Assembly: GCA_001295865.1 (NCBI GenBank)
Contig: LJHW01000029.1
Coordinates: forward strand, 1-64,000
Direction: 5' to 3'
From: a beta proteobacterium AAP65
GTDB taxonomy: Bacteria > Pseudomonadota > Gammaproteobacteria > Burkholderiales > Burkholderiaceae_C
Length of the DNA: 64,000 nt
In this document: positions 39,527-63,612 of the stretch, piece by piece
Layout of the letters: each line of letters begins with the position of its first letter
Position numbering within the stretch: position 1 is the first letter of the stretch
Notes under the pieces: model-generated
Seen by the model: the letters and a program-made list of their open reading frames with translations, nothing else
Told to the model about the DNA's origin: nothing
Database searches by the model: none
Program-made: the position numbers and the translations under genes

Positions 39527-39955
39527 TCAGAAGGGTTTCACGACCACGAGCACCACGATGGCGATGAACATCAGCACCGAGACCTCGTTGAAGACGCGGA
39601 ACCACTTGTGGCTGCGCTTGTTGTTCAGCCGCTCGAAGCTGCGCAGCACCCCGCGGCACACGTGGTGGTAGCCGATGACGGCCAGCACCAGTGCCAGCTT
39701 GGCGTGCATCCAGCCGCCGCCGATGCCGTACACCAGCCACAGCACCAGGCCCAGCGCCAGCGCCGGCACCATCAGCAGGCTGCTGAAGCGGTAGAGCTTG
39801 CGCGCCATCAGCAGCAGACGTTCACGTTCGGCGTGGCTGTCGGCCGGCACCATGGCCAGGTTGACGAAGATGCGCGGCATGTAGAACAAGCCCGCGAACC
39901 AGCTGGCCACGAAGACGATGTGGAAGGCCTTGACCCAGAGATAGCTGCTGCTCAT
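39527..39955 (-). CDS. hemJ: HemJ/CopD-like membrane protein, probable protoporphyrinogen oxidase
   Basis: A 142-residue protein with four membrane helices. The start MSSSYLWVKAFHIVFVASWFAGLFYMPRIFVNLA has the conserved His of the first helix and the WFAGLFY-PR motif; later WMHAKLALVLAVIGYHHVC and NKRSHKWFRVFNEVSVLMFIAIVVLVVVKPF match HemJ from end to end. HemJ converts protoporphyrinogen IX to protoporphyrin IX with haem b as cofactor, and HemJ proteins of related bacteria lie beside haem genes; hemB is the next gene on the other side here (divergent). Some CopD-family annotation is possible, so the symbol is likely rather than certain. Confidence 0.8.
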   Translation of the reverse strand: MSSSYLWVKAFHIVFVASWFAGLFYMPRIFVNLAMVPADSHAERERLLLMARKLYRFSSLLMVPALALGLVLWLVYGIGGGWMHAKLALVLAVIGYHHVCRGVLRSFERLNNKRSHKWFRVFNEVSVLMFIAIVVLVVVKPF

Positions 39956-40006
39956 GCAGCGATTATCGACACGCGGCAGCAGCCCCCGCAGCGCGCCGTG
40001 CGTGGG

Positions 40007-40037
40007 AAAAAAAAAGCCCCGATCCAAGGACCGGGGC
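40007..40037 (-). terminator. Rho-independent terminator of the candidate small RNA
   Basis: Stem GCCCCG/CGGGGC (40037 to 40016, with an inner TCC/GGA pair) followed by nine T on the minus strand. It faces a region with no minus-strand gene between hemJ and hemB, which is why a small RNA is proposed. Confidence 0.8.
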
Positions 40038-40121
40038 GGGTAAGCCTTATCGCTGTCATCACGCTAAGGCACCTGCTCAGGGAGGAAAAGCAGGGAACAA
40101 CAACCTCGCGGCTATCATTCA
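40007..40121 (-). ncRNA. candidate small RNA with anti-Shine-Dalgarno loop, between hemJ and hemB
   Basis: On the minus strand, three hairpins can be read in a row with nothing coding between the divergent hemJ and hemB starts. Hairpin 1 (40094 to 40072) is CCTGCT-TTTCCTCCCTG-AGCAGG, whose loop shows CCTCC, the complement of a ribosome binding site. Hairpin 2 (40070 to 40044) has the stem GCCTTA/TAAGGC. Hairpin 3 (40037 to 40016) is GCCCCG...CGGGGC followed by nine T (40015 to 40007), a strong Rho-independent terminator facing away from both genes. A promoter-like pair, TTGCCG (40157 to 40152) and TAAAGT (40133 to 40128) with 18 bases between, would start the RNA near 40121, giving about 115 bases. 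No minus-strand gene nearby needs this terminator. The start is approximate; RNA family unknown to me. Confidence 0.6.
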
Positions 40122-40143
40122 TCGATCACTTTAGCAGATGTGA

Positions 40144-41208
<1,065 letters not shown>

Positions 41209-55864: not shown

Positions 55865-60096
<4,232 letters not shown>

Positions 60097-60219
60097 GATG
60101 GGAGCTGGCGTTGCGGAGGGCAGCGCGGGCCGAACAGCCTGTGTTGCTGCGCCTGCGTGCGCCGCGCCGGGGTGCCGGCCTTCCTTGCCTTCAGCGATGC
60201 CTGCGCATTCGGTTCATGT

Positions 60220-60243
60220 CCGCGCGGGGTGCGCGGCTGGAGG
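60220..60243 (+). promoter_or_regulatory. hairpin next to the btuB Shine-Dalgarno site
   Basis: CCGCGC (60220-60225) pairs with GCGCGG (60231-60236) over a 5-base loop, directly before the GGAGG ribosome site at 60239-60243. TTG 60250 follows with 6 bases spacing. Together with the riboswitch 124 bases upstream, it could govern translation. Confidence 0.4.
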
Positions 60244-60249
60244 TTGTTC

Positions 60250-62088
60250 TTGTCTCTCTTCCGCTTCAAGCGGCGCGCTGCGGCGCCCGCGTCTCTCATG
60301 CTTTCCTTGCTGGCCACCGCGGCCAGCGCCCAGAGCCCGCAACAGGTCTCCGTCACGGCCACCCGCGTGCCCACGCCGGTGAACCAGCTCGTGGCCGAGG
60401 TGACGGTCATCGACCGCGCCACCATCGAGCGCAGCGAAGGCCGCACGCTCGTGGAGCTGCTGTCGCAGCAGGCCGGCCTGCAGTTCGCCAGCAACGGCGG
60501 GCTGGGCAAGAGCGCCTCGGTCTTCATCCGCGGCCTGGAATCGCGCCACACGCTGCTGCTGGTGGACGGCATGCGGGTCGGTTCGGCCACGCTGGGCACA
60601 CCTTCGCTGGACAACCTGCCGCTGGAAGCGGTGGAGCGCATCGAGATCGTGCGCGGGCCGATGTCTTCGCTCTACGGCAACGGCGCGCTCGGCGGCGTGG
60701 TGCAGGTCTTCACGCGCCAGGCCGTGCAGGGCCTGAGCGCCAACGCCAAGCTCTCGGCCGGCTCCAACGAGTTCGGCCAGCTGGCGGCCGGCGTGGGTTT
60801 CGGCAACGGTGTCTTCGACGTGGCTGTGCAGGCCCAGCACACCGACACCCGCGGCGTCTCCGCCACCAACCCGAAGGTGCCCTTCGGCAACCACAACCCC
60901 GACCGCGACGGCTTCCGCCAGAGCGCCGGCAGCCTGCGCCTGGGTTGGCGCCCGGGTGCCGACTGGCGCGTGGAACTGCTGGCGCTGGGCAGCACGGGCC
61001 TGAGCCGCATCGACGACGGCCCGGGCGCCGACGCCCGCGCCGAGCTGCACAACCGGCTGCTCGGCCTCACGGCACGGGGCCCGGTGCTGGGCTCGTGGCG
61101 CACGCGTGTGAGCCTCACCGAAACGGTGGACGCCTACGACACCCTGGCCAGTGCCAGCGCCTTCACCGACCTCGGCGTCATCCGCACGCGCAGCCAGCAA
61201 GCGAGCTGGGAGAACACCGTGGCCACGCCGCTGGGCACGGCGCTGGTCTTGCTGGAGCGCACCGATGAGAAGGTGGCGCGGCCAGTGACGCCTTTTGTCG
61301 AAAGCGAACGCAGCATCGACGCGCTGGCCCTGGGCCTGAACGGCAGCGCCGCCGCGCACAACTGGCAGGCCAGCCTGCGGCGCGACCGCAACTCGCAGTT
61401 CGGCGGTGTGACCACCGGCGCCGTGGCTTACGGCTACGCGCTCACGCCGGCCTGGCTGCTGGGCGCCAGCTACGGCACCAGCCAGACCCTGCCCAGCTTC
61501 AACCAGCTCTACTTCCCTGGTTTCGGCAGCCCCAACCTGCTGCCCGAAGAAGGCACACATGCCGAGCTGAGCCTGCGCTGGACGGCCGGTGAACACCGCC
61601 TGCGCGCGGCCTGGTACGACTACCGCTACCGCGGCTTCATCAGCAGCGGCCCGCAGCCGGTGAACCTGCCCAGGGTGGAGATCGACGGCGTGACGCTCGG
61701 CTACGAGGGCCGCTGGCGCGACGTGGACCTCACCGCCAGCTACGACCACACCGACCCACGCAACGCCACCGTGGGCAACGCCAACTACGGCAAGCAGCTC
61801 GCGCGGCGCGCCAAGCAGGCGCTGCGCCTGGGGGCCGACTGGCAGGCCGGCGCGTGGTCGGCCGGGGCCACGCTCTCGGCCTTCTCCTACCGCTACGACA
61901 ACGCCGCCAACACCACGCGCCTGGGCGGCTACGGCACGCTGGACTTGCGCGGTGAATGGGCCTTCTCGCGGCAAGCCCGCCTGGGGCTGCGTGTGAACAA
62001 CGTGGCCGACAAGGGCTACAGCACCGTGCTGGGCTACGACCAGCCGGGCCGCGAAGCTTTTGTCACCCTGCGCTGGGTGATGAAGTGA
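60250..62088 (+). CDS. btuB: TonB-dependent vitamin B12 receptor
   Basis: A 612-residue outer-membrane receptor, near the 614 of E. coli BtuB. It starts at TTG 60250, chosen because GGAGG lies 6 bases before it and the resulting MSLFRFKRRAAAPASLMLSLLATAASAQ is a good signal peptide; the ATG at 60298 has no such site. The mature N-terminus has a TonB-box-like region (QQVSVTATR), then the plug (VLLDGMRVG-like LLLVDGMRVGSATLG, GPMSSLYGNGALGGVVQVFT) and a 22-strand barrel ending EAFVTLRWVMK. It moves cobalamin into the periplasm with energy from TonB. Confidence 0.93.
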   Translation: MSLFRFKRRAAAPASLMLSLLATAASAQSPQQVSVTATRVPTPVNQLVAEVTVIDRATIERSEGRTLVELLSQQAGLQFASNGGLGKSASVFIRGLESRHTLLLVDGMRVGSATLGTPSLDNLPLEAVERIEIVRGPMSSLYGNGALGGVVQVFTRQAVQGLSANAKLSAGSNEFGQLAAGVGFGNGVFDVAVQAQHTDTRGVSATNPKVPFGNHNPDRDGFRQSAGSLRLGWRPGADWRVELLALGSTGLSRIDDGPGADARAELHNRLLGLTARGPVLGSWRTRVSLTETVDAYDTLASASAFTDLGVIRTRSQQASWENTVATPLGTALVLLERTDEKVARPVTPFVESERSIDALALGLNGSAAAHNWQASLRRDRNSQFGGVTTGAVAYGYALTPAWLLGASYGTSQTLPSFNQLYFPGFGSPNLLPEEGTHAELSLRWTAGEHRLRAAWYDYRYRGFISSGPQPVNLPRVEIDGVTLGYEGRWRDVDLTASYDHTDPRNATVGNANYGKQLARRAKQALRLGADWQAGAWSAGATLSAFSYRYDNAANTTRLGGYGTLDLRGEWAFSRQARLGLRVNNVADKGYSTVLGYDQPGREAFVTLRWVMK

Positions 62089-62098
62089 GGGCCCGCCG

Positions 62099-62701
62099 AT
62101 GAACACCGCCGCCGCCGCCACCGTGGCGCACGAACTGCTGCTGGGCGGCGCGCGCAGCGGCAAATCACGCGCTGCCGAGGCGCGGGCGGCGGCCTGGTTG
62201 GGCGGGCCGGTCTGCCGTGGGGGCCTTCCTCGTGAAGCCCTGTTGTTGGCCACCGCCGTGGCCGGCGATGAAGAGATGGCCGAGCGCATCCGCCGCCACC
62301 AGGCCGACCGCGCGCTGCGCCTGCCGGCCCTGGGCTGCGTGGAAGTGGCCGGGCTCGACCTGGCCGAGGTGCTGGCCCGCCACAGCACGCCGCAGCGCCT
62401 GCTGGTGGTGGACTGCCTCACCTTGTGGCTCACGCAGCTGGCGCTGCCGCTGCAGGGCCCGCCGGCCACAGCCGATGCGCTGCACGACGCGGGCCGCACG
62501 CTGGTGCAGGCGCTGCGCGCGGCGCCGGGCCCGGTGGTGCTGGTGTCCAACGAGATCGGCCTGGGCGTGATGCCCCTGGGCGCCGAAACGCGGCGTTTTG
62601 TCGACGCGCTGGGCGGCCTGCACCAGGCGCTGGCGGCGGCCTGTGCGCGCGTCACGCTGCTGGTGGCGGGTTGTGAACTGCCGGTGAAGGAGATGGCATG
62701 A
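62099..62701 (+). CDS. cobU: adenosylcobinamide kinase / guanylyltransferase
   Basis: A 200-residue P-loop enzyme that phosphorylates adenosylcobinamide and then adds GMP, in cobalamin salvage and assembly. LLLGGARSGKSRAAE is the P-loop near residue 14, DEEMAERIRRHQADR holds the catalytic His, LLVVDCLTLWL the Walker B region and VLVSNEIGLGVMPLGAETRRFVDALGGLHQALAAACARVTLLVAG the conserved end. It starts 11 bases after btuB and overlaps btuF by 4 bases, in the B12 operon under the riboswitch. cobU or cobP are alternative names. Confidence 0.92.
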   Translation: MNTAAAATVAHELLLGGARSGKSRAAEARAAAWLGGPVCRGGLPREALLLATAVAGDEEMAERIRRHQADRALRLPALGCVEVAGLDLAEVLARHSTPQRLLVVDCLTLWLTQLALPLQGPPATADALHDAGRTLVQALRAAPGPVVLVSNEIGLGVMPLGAETRRFVDALGGLHQALAAACARVTLLVAGCELPVKEMA

Positions 62702-63612
62702 AGCACGGGTTCTGGCGCTTGTTCAGCGCCACGCTGTTGGGGGTCCTGGGCGGCTGGCCTGCTGCGCAAGCCGCCACCGTGGTGGACGACCGCGGCCGCA
62801 CCGTGGTGCTGCCGGCCGCGCCGCAGCGGGTGGTGTCCTTGCTGCCCTCTCTGACCGAGGCCGTGTGCGCGCTGCAGGCCTGCAACCGCCTGGTGGGCAC
62901 CGACCGCTTCTCGAACTGGCCGGCCAGCGTGCTGGCCCTGCCCAAGCTGGGTGGGCTGGACGACACGCAGATCGAGCGCCTCGTCGCGCTCAAGCCCGAC
63001 CTGGTGCTGGCCGCCGGCTCTTCACGCGCCATCGACCGCCTGGAAGCCCTGGGCCTGGCCGTGGTGGCGCTGGAGCCCAAGACCCTGCAGGACACCGAGC
63101 GGGTGCTCGGCAAGGTGGGCCAGGCCCTGGGCGATGCGGCGGCCGGCGCGGCGCTGTGGCAGCGGCTGCAGCAGCGCATGGCGGCCGCCGCGGCACGTGT
63201 GCCGGCAGGGCTGCGCGGGCAGAAGGTGTATTTCGAAGTGGCCTCGGCGCCTTATGCCGCCGGCGAGAGCTCATTCGTCGGTGAGTTGCTCACAAGCCTG
63301 GGCATGGGCAATGTGGTGCCGGCGGCGATGGGGCCTTTTCCCAAGCTCAACCCCGAGTTTGTCGTGCGCGCCCAGCCCGACATCGTGATCGGCACTGCGC
63401 GTGCCGTGGCCGAGATGCCGGCGCGGCCGGGCTGGGGCAGCCTGCGCGCGCTGCACGCCGGCCGGCACTGCGGTTTTGCGAGTGAGCCCTGGGACACACT
63501 GGTGCGCCCCGGCCCGCGCCTGGCCGAAGGTGCCGAGTTGCTGGCCGATTGCCTGGCCGGCCTGGCAGGCAGAACCCCAGCGCCGGTGCCGGCCGGCGCC
63601 GCGGCGCGGTGA
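62698..63612 (+). CDS. btuF: cobalamin ABC transporter substrate-binding protein
   Basis: A 304-residue periplasmic binding protein. A signal peptide (LFSATLLGVLGGWPAAQAATV) is followed by the class III fold typical of BtuF: PQRVVSLLPSLTEAVCALQACNRLVGTDRFSNWPA, LPKLGGLDDTQIERLVALKPDLVLAAGSSRAIDRLEALGLAVVALEPKT, and in the second lobe AGESSFVGELLTSLGMGNVVPA. It delivers vitamin B12 to the BtuC/BtuD permease. Start ATG 62698 overlaps cobU, and it overlaps the next gene by 4 bases at GTGA. Confidence 0.9.
   Translation: MKHGFWRLFSATLLGVLGGWPAAQAATVVDDRGRTVVLPAAPQRVVSLLPSLTEAVCALQACNRLVGTDRFSNWPASVLALPKLGGLDDTQIERLVALKPDLVLAAGSSRAIDRLEALGLAVVALEPKTLQDTERVLGKVGQALGDAAAGAALWQRLQQRMAAAAARVPAGLRGQKVYFEVASAPYAAGESSFVGELLTSLGMGNVVPAAMGPFPKLNPEFVVRAQPDIVIGTARAVAEMPARPGWGSLRALHAGRHCGFASEPWDTLVRPGPRLAEGAELLADCLAGLAGRTPAPVPAGAAAR

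Follow-up and report, generated by a model that had tools for sequence, protein, structure and literature searches.

A predicted anti-hemB small RNA between hemJ and hemB in beta proteobacterium AAP65 and its place in a positional lineage of engB-linked RNAs

Introduction

The gap between hemJ and hemB in the genome of beta proteobacterium AAP65 raises the question of which RNA it may encode, and whether such an RNA has anything to do with the haem genes on either side. A preliminary description, made from the letters of the DNA, had placed a candidate small RNA with a CCTCC loop on the minus strand of this gap and, from its position, had suggested haem- or iron-linked control. The region was analysed here within the window, i.e. 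the whole stretch of 64,000 nucleotides under study (contig LJHW01000029.1, positions 1 to 64,000).

Identity of the RNA

Four hairpins, one of them exposing the loop UUCCUCCCU and the last a strong terminator, make up a predicted RNA of about 115 nt on the minus strand at 40007-40121. An Rfam scan of the window matched it to RF02837 (anti-hemB) with 62.2 bits against a cut-off of 49.5 (E = 4e-12 over the window), the match spanning 40008-40096 and the full model (model positions 1-81). The elements follow one another in the order of the family, namely the CCUCCC loop hairpin, the middle stem and the terminator, and a divergent hemB adjoins the RNA, as expected of beta members (94 of the 100 aligned loci are hemB-anchored). 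All other Rfam matches at the site stayed under their cut-offs, including Spot 42 (RF00021, 21.5 bits versus 80), the Betaproteobacteria toxic small RNA (RF02278, 22.1 versus 50) and mmgR/suhB (RF00519, 21.8 versus 41). The double-hairpin RNAs of RF02278 share a CU-rich loop and a terminator with the window RNA but have two hairpins as opposed to four; a member of that family occurs elsewhere in the same genome, on contig 34 at 249722-249782 (minus strand; positions 1501-1561 of extracted locus L159), with 58.5 bits. By sequence, the feature is thus assigned to the betaproteobacterial small RNA anti-hemB (RF02837; ncS04 of B. cenocepacia), a known family here met in a further genus, and the preliminary call was a correct rediscovery of that family from sequence alone.

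In B. cenocepacia, ncS04 is a transcript of 105 nt that copurified with Hfq and is reported to bind it (PMC5688073, PMC4603805); its start was mapped, its 3' end was confirmed by RACE and it was seen on Northern blots, its adjoining genes being BCAL0264 and BCAL0265 (PMC5688073). Its authors remarked that the Rfam matches conveyed no function (PMC5688073). We infer that Bc7, which copurified with Hfq, is probably the same RNA as ncS04. The window RNA resembles anti-hemB/ncS04 in sequence and structure (above the cut-off), in the loop hairpin, middle stem and terminator, and in the divergent hemB. It differs from its Burkholderia counterpart in predicted length (115 versus 105 nt), in having hemJ downstream instead of engB, in a longer 5' hairpin and in being known from sequence alone. 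No paper naming RF02837 was found in the literature searched, an absence which is no proof of novelty.

Structure and transcript ends

The predicted fold of 40121-40007 (minus strand) has a free energy of -50.4 kcal/mol, compared with -32.8 (sd 3.4) for shuffled sequences (z = -5.1; 0 of 200 shuffles as good), and consists of four hairpins in series: an 11-pair 5' stem, a 7-pair stem topped by UUCCUCCCU, the stem GCCUUA/UAAGGC and a nine-U terminator. The 5' hairpin (40120-40095) had been overlooked in the preliminary description and lies outside the Rfam model; it has changes on both sides at three pairs in 13 close relatives and a median z of -1.8 across 99 orthologues. The anti-Shine-Dalgarno hairpin occupies 40072-40094, its stem CCUGCUU/GAGCAGG lying at 40094-40088 and 40078-40072 and its loop at 40087-40079. 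This loop measures 9 nt; without the closing U.G pair it has the 11 nt given in the preliminary description. The third hairpin (40044-40070) has its GCCUUA/UAAGGC arms at 40070-40065 and 40049-40044, with changes on both sides at four pairs, and the intrinsic terminator (40007-40037) comprises a 9-pair stem, GCCCCGGUC/GAUCGGGGC, at 40037-40016 with three such pairs, followed by nine T at 40015-40007. The CCTCC loop, second stem and nine-T terminator described earlier are therefore all present on the minus strand, and the gap does hold no minus-strand gene end, hemB being divergent.

The window holds the promoter-like pair TTGCCG-18-TAAAGT proposed earlier, both boxes and the spacer being as described, and its two halves fared differently: the -10 element TAAAGT (40128-40133, minus strand) is kept as TAnAnT at the same position in all 13 aligned close relatives, whereas the -35-like TTGCCG (40152-40157, minus strand) is weak and is not kept in relatives. 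The ends of the window RNA were predicted from the -10 spacing seen for the Burkholderia RNA of 105 nt. In B. ambifaria (locus L062), 111 nt separate the -10 hexamer from the end of the terminator U-run, so that a 6-nt gap leaves the 105 nt published; the same spacing applied to the window predicts a transcript of 115 nt, 40121-40007.

A 13-codon ATG frame, MIAARLLFPAFPP, lies at 40118-40077 (minus strand), starting 3 nt past the predicted RNA start and stopping at the TGA of CCCTGA. Its MIAAR/MIVAR...PAFPP form is kept in ten close relatives, and the frame is probably a side effect of stem conservation in the RNA. Spot 42 of E. coli codes for a small protein, SpfP.

Conservation across the order

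Within the GTDB order of the window, 299 of 399 sampled genomes match RF02837 at E <= 0.001 and 245 score above the cut-off, and a scan of named genomes with the loop-hairpin pattern gave at least 120 loci. Among the matches listed, those with hemB or hemJ alongside nearly all bear a betaproteobacterial label, and Beta proteobacterium AAP51 comes nearest to the window (HemB 91% identical). For alignment and folding, 100 orthologues were extracted with their flanks. TCCTCCC is unpaired in the predicted folds of 99 out of 99 orthologues, and the loop hairpin is near-invariant in a 72-sequence alignment, with a single C-G to U-A double change that 15 sequences share. RNAalifold recovered the loop hairpin alone from this alignment because the other stems were misaligned, and covariation was therefore counted on 13 close relatives with the four-hairpin structure. 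Here, 10 pairs had changed on both sides, three of them in the 5' hairpin absent from the Rfam model; shuffles gave 3.7, and none of 500 reached the observed count. The stems are thus kept in related genomes, as judged by above-cut-off matches and by covariation. Together with the Rfam match and the unpaired loop, these data support the earlier proposal of a small RNA of the trans-acting type with an anti-Shine-Dalgarno loop and a promoter and terminator of its own. A concrete test set is available in the hundreds of genomes whose loop hairpin hardly varies and in a 5' hairpin omitted by the Rfam model.

Four genomes from two genera of the window's own family (G093, G133, G204 and G377; genera g3 and g5) lacked any RF02837 match at E <= 0.001; loss or divergence of the RNA in these genera may be the cause. 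In Nitrosospira briensis, two copies of the loop hairpin lie 123 nt apart beside hemB (L110, 744-883, minus strand), which suggests that the RNA is present in tandem. A metagenome bin whose record bears the title Klebsiella pneumoniae (L153) holds a typical betaproteobacterial hemB and anti-hemB locus and is probably mislabelled or mixed.

Neighbouring genes

The divergent neighbour at 40204-41208 (plus strand) is a gene that we take to be hemB, on the preliminary description and general knowledge. A TTG start is assumed, with AAGGACA upstream, and the same protein lies beside the RNA in more than 90 loci, mostly at 64-91% identity. On the strand of the RNA and downstream of it, hemJ occupies 39527-39955; it has this position in all 40 loci where it was found, i.e. 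the window and 39 others. Such an arrangement would suit a cis-acting element, the RNA being the 5' leader or attenuator of hemJ and terminating unless a signal permits read-through. However, engB lies downstream on the opposite strand in 53 loci, so that there is nothing there to attenuate. In addition, hemJ has its own conserved box, the probable -10 GATAAT (39962-39967, minus strand), 6 bases before its ATG; a similar box occurs at the same place across relatives, as CATAAT/GATAAT in the window's clade and as TACACT/TAAACT in Comamonadaceae. The hemJ mRNA is thus probably nearly leaderless, which makes the RNA unlikely as its leader. The Burkholderia RNA, moreover, stands by itself as a 105-nt transcript whose 3' end was confirmed by RACE (PMC5688073). 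On gene order and the hemJ -10 the leader reading was rejected, and we regard it as very improbable.

Among beta loci, engB accompanies hemB in 58 and hemJ accompanies hemB in 37, and engB is tail-to-tail with the RNA (downstream, on the opposite strand) in all 53 beta loci with readable geometry. Taken as a whole, the family lies next to polA and/or tail-to-tail with engB, in 53 of 53 engB-bearing beta loci and in 17 of the 20 loci fetched from outside the order; the window's own genome departs from this, with hemJ as the neighbour. As engB lies on another contig there and hemJ adjoins the RNA downstream, hemJ stands in engB's place, as it does in the window's clade. The neighbour that is stable across lineages is engB, not hemB.

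The name of the family, and the close, divergent hemB in nearly all beta loci, suggest a regulator of hemB or of haem synthesis, acting by pairing to hemB mRNA or by competition between back-to-back promoters, and one review gives hemB as a target of Burkholderia Bc7, though solely as a prediction (PMC6321483). Yet the complementarity of the loop to the hemB start region is no better than in shuffles (93 loci, median z 0.06), GGAGG occurs in this region in 10 of the 93 loci, and hemB was rejected as a loop target on this ground. The level of ncS04 was likewise unchanged in low iron, in biofilm, in starvation and in every other condition tested (PMC5688073), and outside the order the homologues adjoin polA and engB. 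A haem regulator is therefore judged unlikely, and the haem or iron control suggested earlier from position is not borne out, given the flat ncS04 level in low iron, the shuffle-level complementarity to hemB and engB as the kept neighbour. The search for the role of the RNA is redirected away from haem synthesis.

The polA-engB locus outside the order

In a class-wide sample, 94 of 369 genomes match RF02837 at E <= 1e-6, and 18 of the 21 above the cut-off lie outside the order; 14 control genomes gave no match at E <= 1e-6. Twenty loci outside the order were fetched for inspection of their neighbours. In 17 of the 20, polA and/or engB lies beside the RNA. All 11 loci with polA have it upstream of the RNA and on the same strand; of the 12 with engB, 11 have it downstream and opposite, and in the remaining one it overlaps the end of the RNA in the alignment. 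The RNA scores above the cut-off in twelve of these loci, and they retain a hairpin of the CCGCT-TCCTCCCTGAGCGG type. A search starting from engB found, in 7 of 30 loci, the core motif 60-131 nt away from the engB stop and on the strand opposite to engB; the control strand gave none. Tandem anti-hemB copies with neither polA nor engB nearby were seen in two outside-order genomes, about 1.5 kb from a tmRNA gene (L204, 2017-2286, and L207, 2012-2283, minus strand).

The E. coli locus consists of polA, spf (encoding Spot 42) and yihA (engB), in the same geometry as the outside-order homologues, which share with Spot 42 (RF00021) the place downstream of polA and tail-to-tail with engB. Spot 42 itself does not match RF02837 and, unlike the window RNA, is without a CCUCC loop. 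ErsA has been described in the polA-engB spacer and, compared by locus position, is likewise placed as the outside-order homologues are. At the polA locus of Xanthomonas, sX13 represses G-rich mRNAs through C-rich loops and acts without Hfq (PMC3771888). By description and position, sX13 resembles the window RNA in its 115 nt, in stem-loops with C-rich apical loops and in lying beside polA as the outside-order homologues do; it differs in its 4C/5C motifs, as opposed to CCUCCC, and in its independence of Hfq. The sX13 paper had already pointed out RNAs at polA in several groups, C-rich loops occurring in some of them (PMC3771888); in the literature consulted, no paper tied anti-hemB to the polA/engB RNAs, which is no proof of novelty. 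Anti-hemB belongs to a positional lineage of engB-linked RNAs at the Spot 42 locus, a link added by this analysis and its most interesting addition: a very widely conserved betaproteobacterial RNA gains a place in a lineage whose members include several of the most thoroughly studied regulatory RNAs. It is conceivable, with doubt slightly outweighing belief, that anti-hemB and the RNAs of the polA-engB spacer go back to one ancestral engB-linked RNA, of which Spot 42, ErsA and sX13 would be divergent descendants, and that the beta lineage acquired hemB, and the window's clade afterwards hemJ, as a neighbour of the RNA. If so, the name anti-hemB reflects an accident of position.

Possible mode of action

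Family membership, the stems, the predicted exposure of the loop, conservation and the locus arrangement are established here. Pairing of the loop to ribosome-binding sites and the direction of the resulting regulation are inferred. The likely reading, held with fair confidence, is that anti-hemB, an RNA of the engB-linked lineage with four hairpins, would be transcribed from its own promoter and end at its own terminator, that the exposed UUCCUCCCU loop would pair with purine-rich Shine-Dalgarno regions of unlinked mRNAs, probably assisted by Hfq at the U-tail, and that this pairing would block ribosome entry and so repress in trans. Given a near-invariant, perfect anti-Shine-Dalgarno loop, and the repression of G-rich ribosome sites by C-rich loops in similar RNAs, repression in trans is the best guess. 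A related CU-rich RNA of Burkholderia slows growth when over-expressed, the reverse being seen with an antisense to the CU-rich region (PMC5688073). Help from Hfq in loop pairing is suggested by the Burkholderia data; as sX13 acts without Hfq, Hfq dependence of the window RNA cannot be assumed. An anti-Shine-Dalgarno loop is also a generic feature, which counts against this reading.

The loop hairpin is almost invariant, beyond the need of mRNA pairing alone, and the Burkholderia homologue binds Hfq (PMC5688073, PMC4603805), both of which would suit a protein sponge, or an Hfq-titrating RNA, with a CU-rich loop that binds a protein rather than mRNA. On the other hand, the CU-rich loops of comparable RNAs pair to G-rich mRNA, as in sX13 (PMC3771888), and the literature found names Hfq as the sole protein partner; a sponge or titrating role is accordingly given a low probability, and repression through loop-mRNA pairing is preferred.

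Candidate targets of such repression were sought with the exact complement of the loop as AGGGAGGA-N(3-9)-ATG, which occurs at 5 sites in this genome and at 44 in nine family members. Among 35 of these candidate loci inspected, no orthologous gene recurred between genomes, and the sites, being few, non-recurrent and ordinary strong Shine-Dalgarno sequences, were rejected as targets, a result that counts against the proposed repression.

Elsewhere in the window, a Cobalamin riboswitch (RF00174, 87.3 bits) at 59837-60107 (plus strand) lies upstream of an ORF resembling a TonB-dependent receptor (within 59992-62088), after which come a cobinamide kinase-like ORF (62099-62701) and an ORF for a BtuF-like binding protein (62698-63612), the names of these ORFs being assigned by eye.
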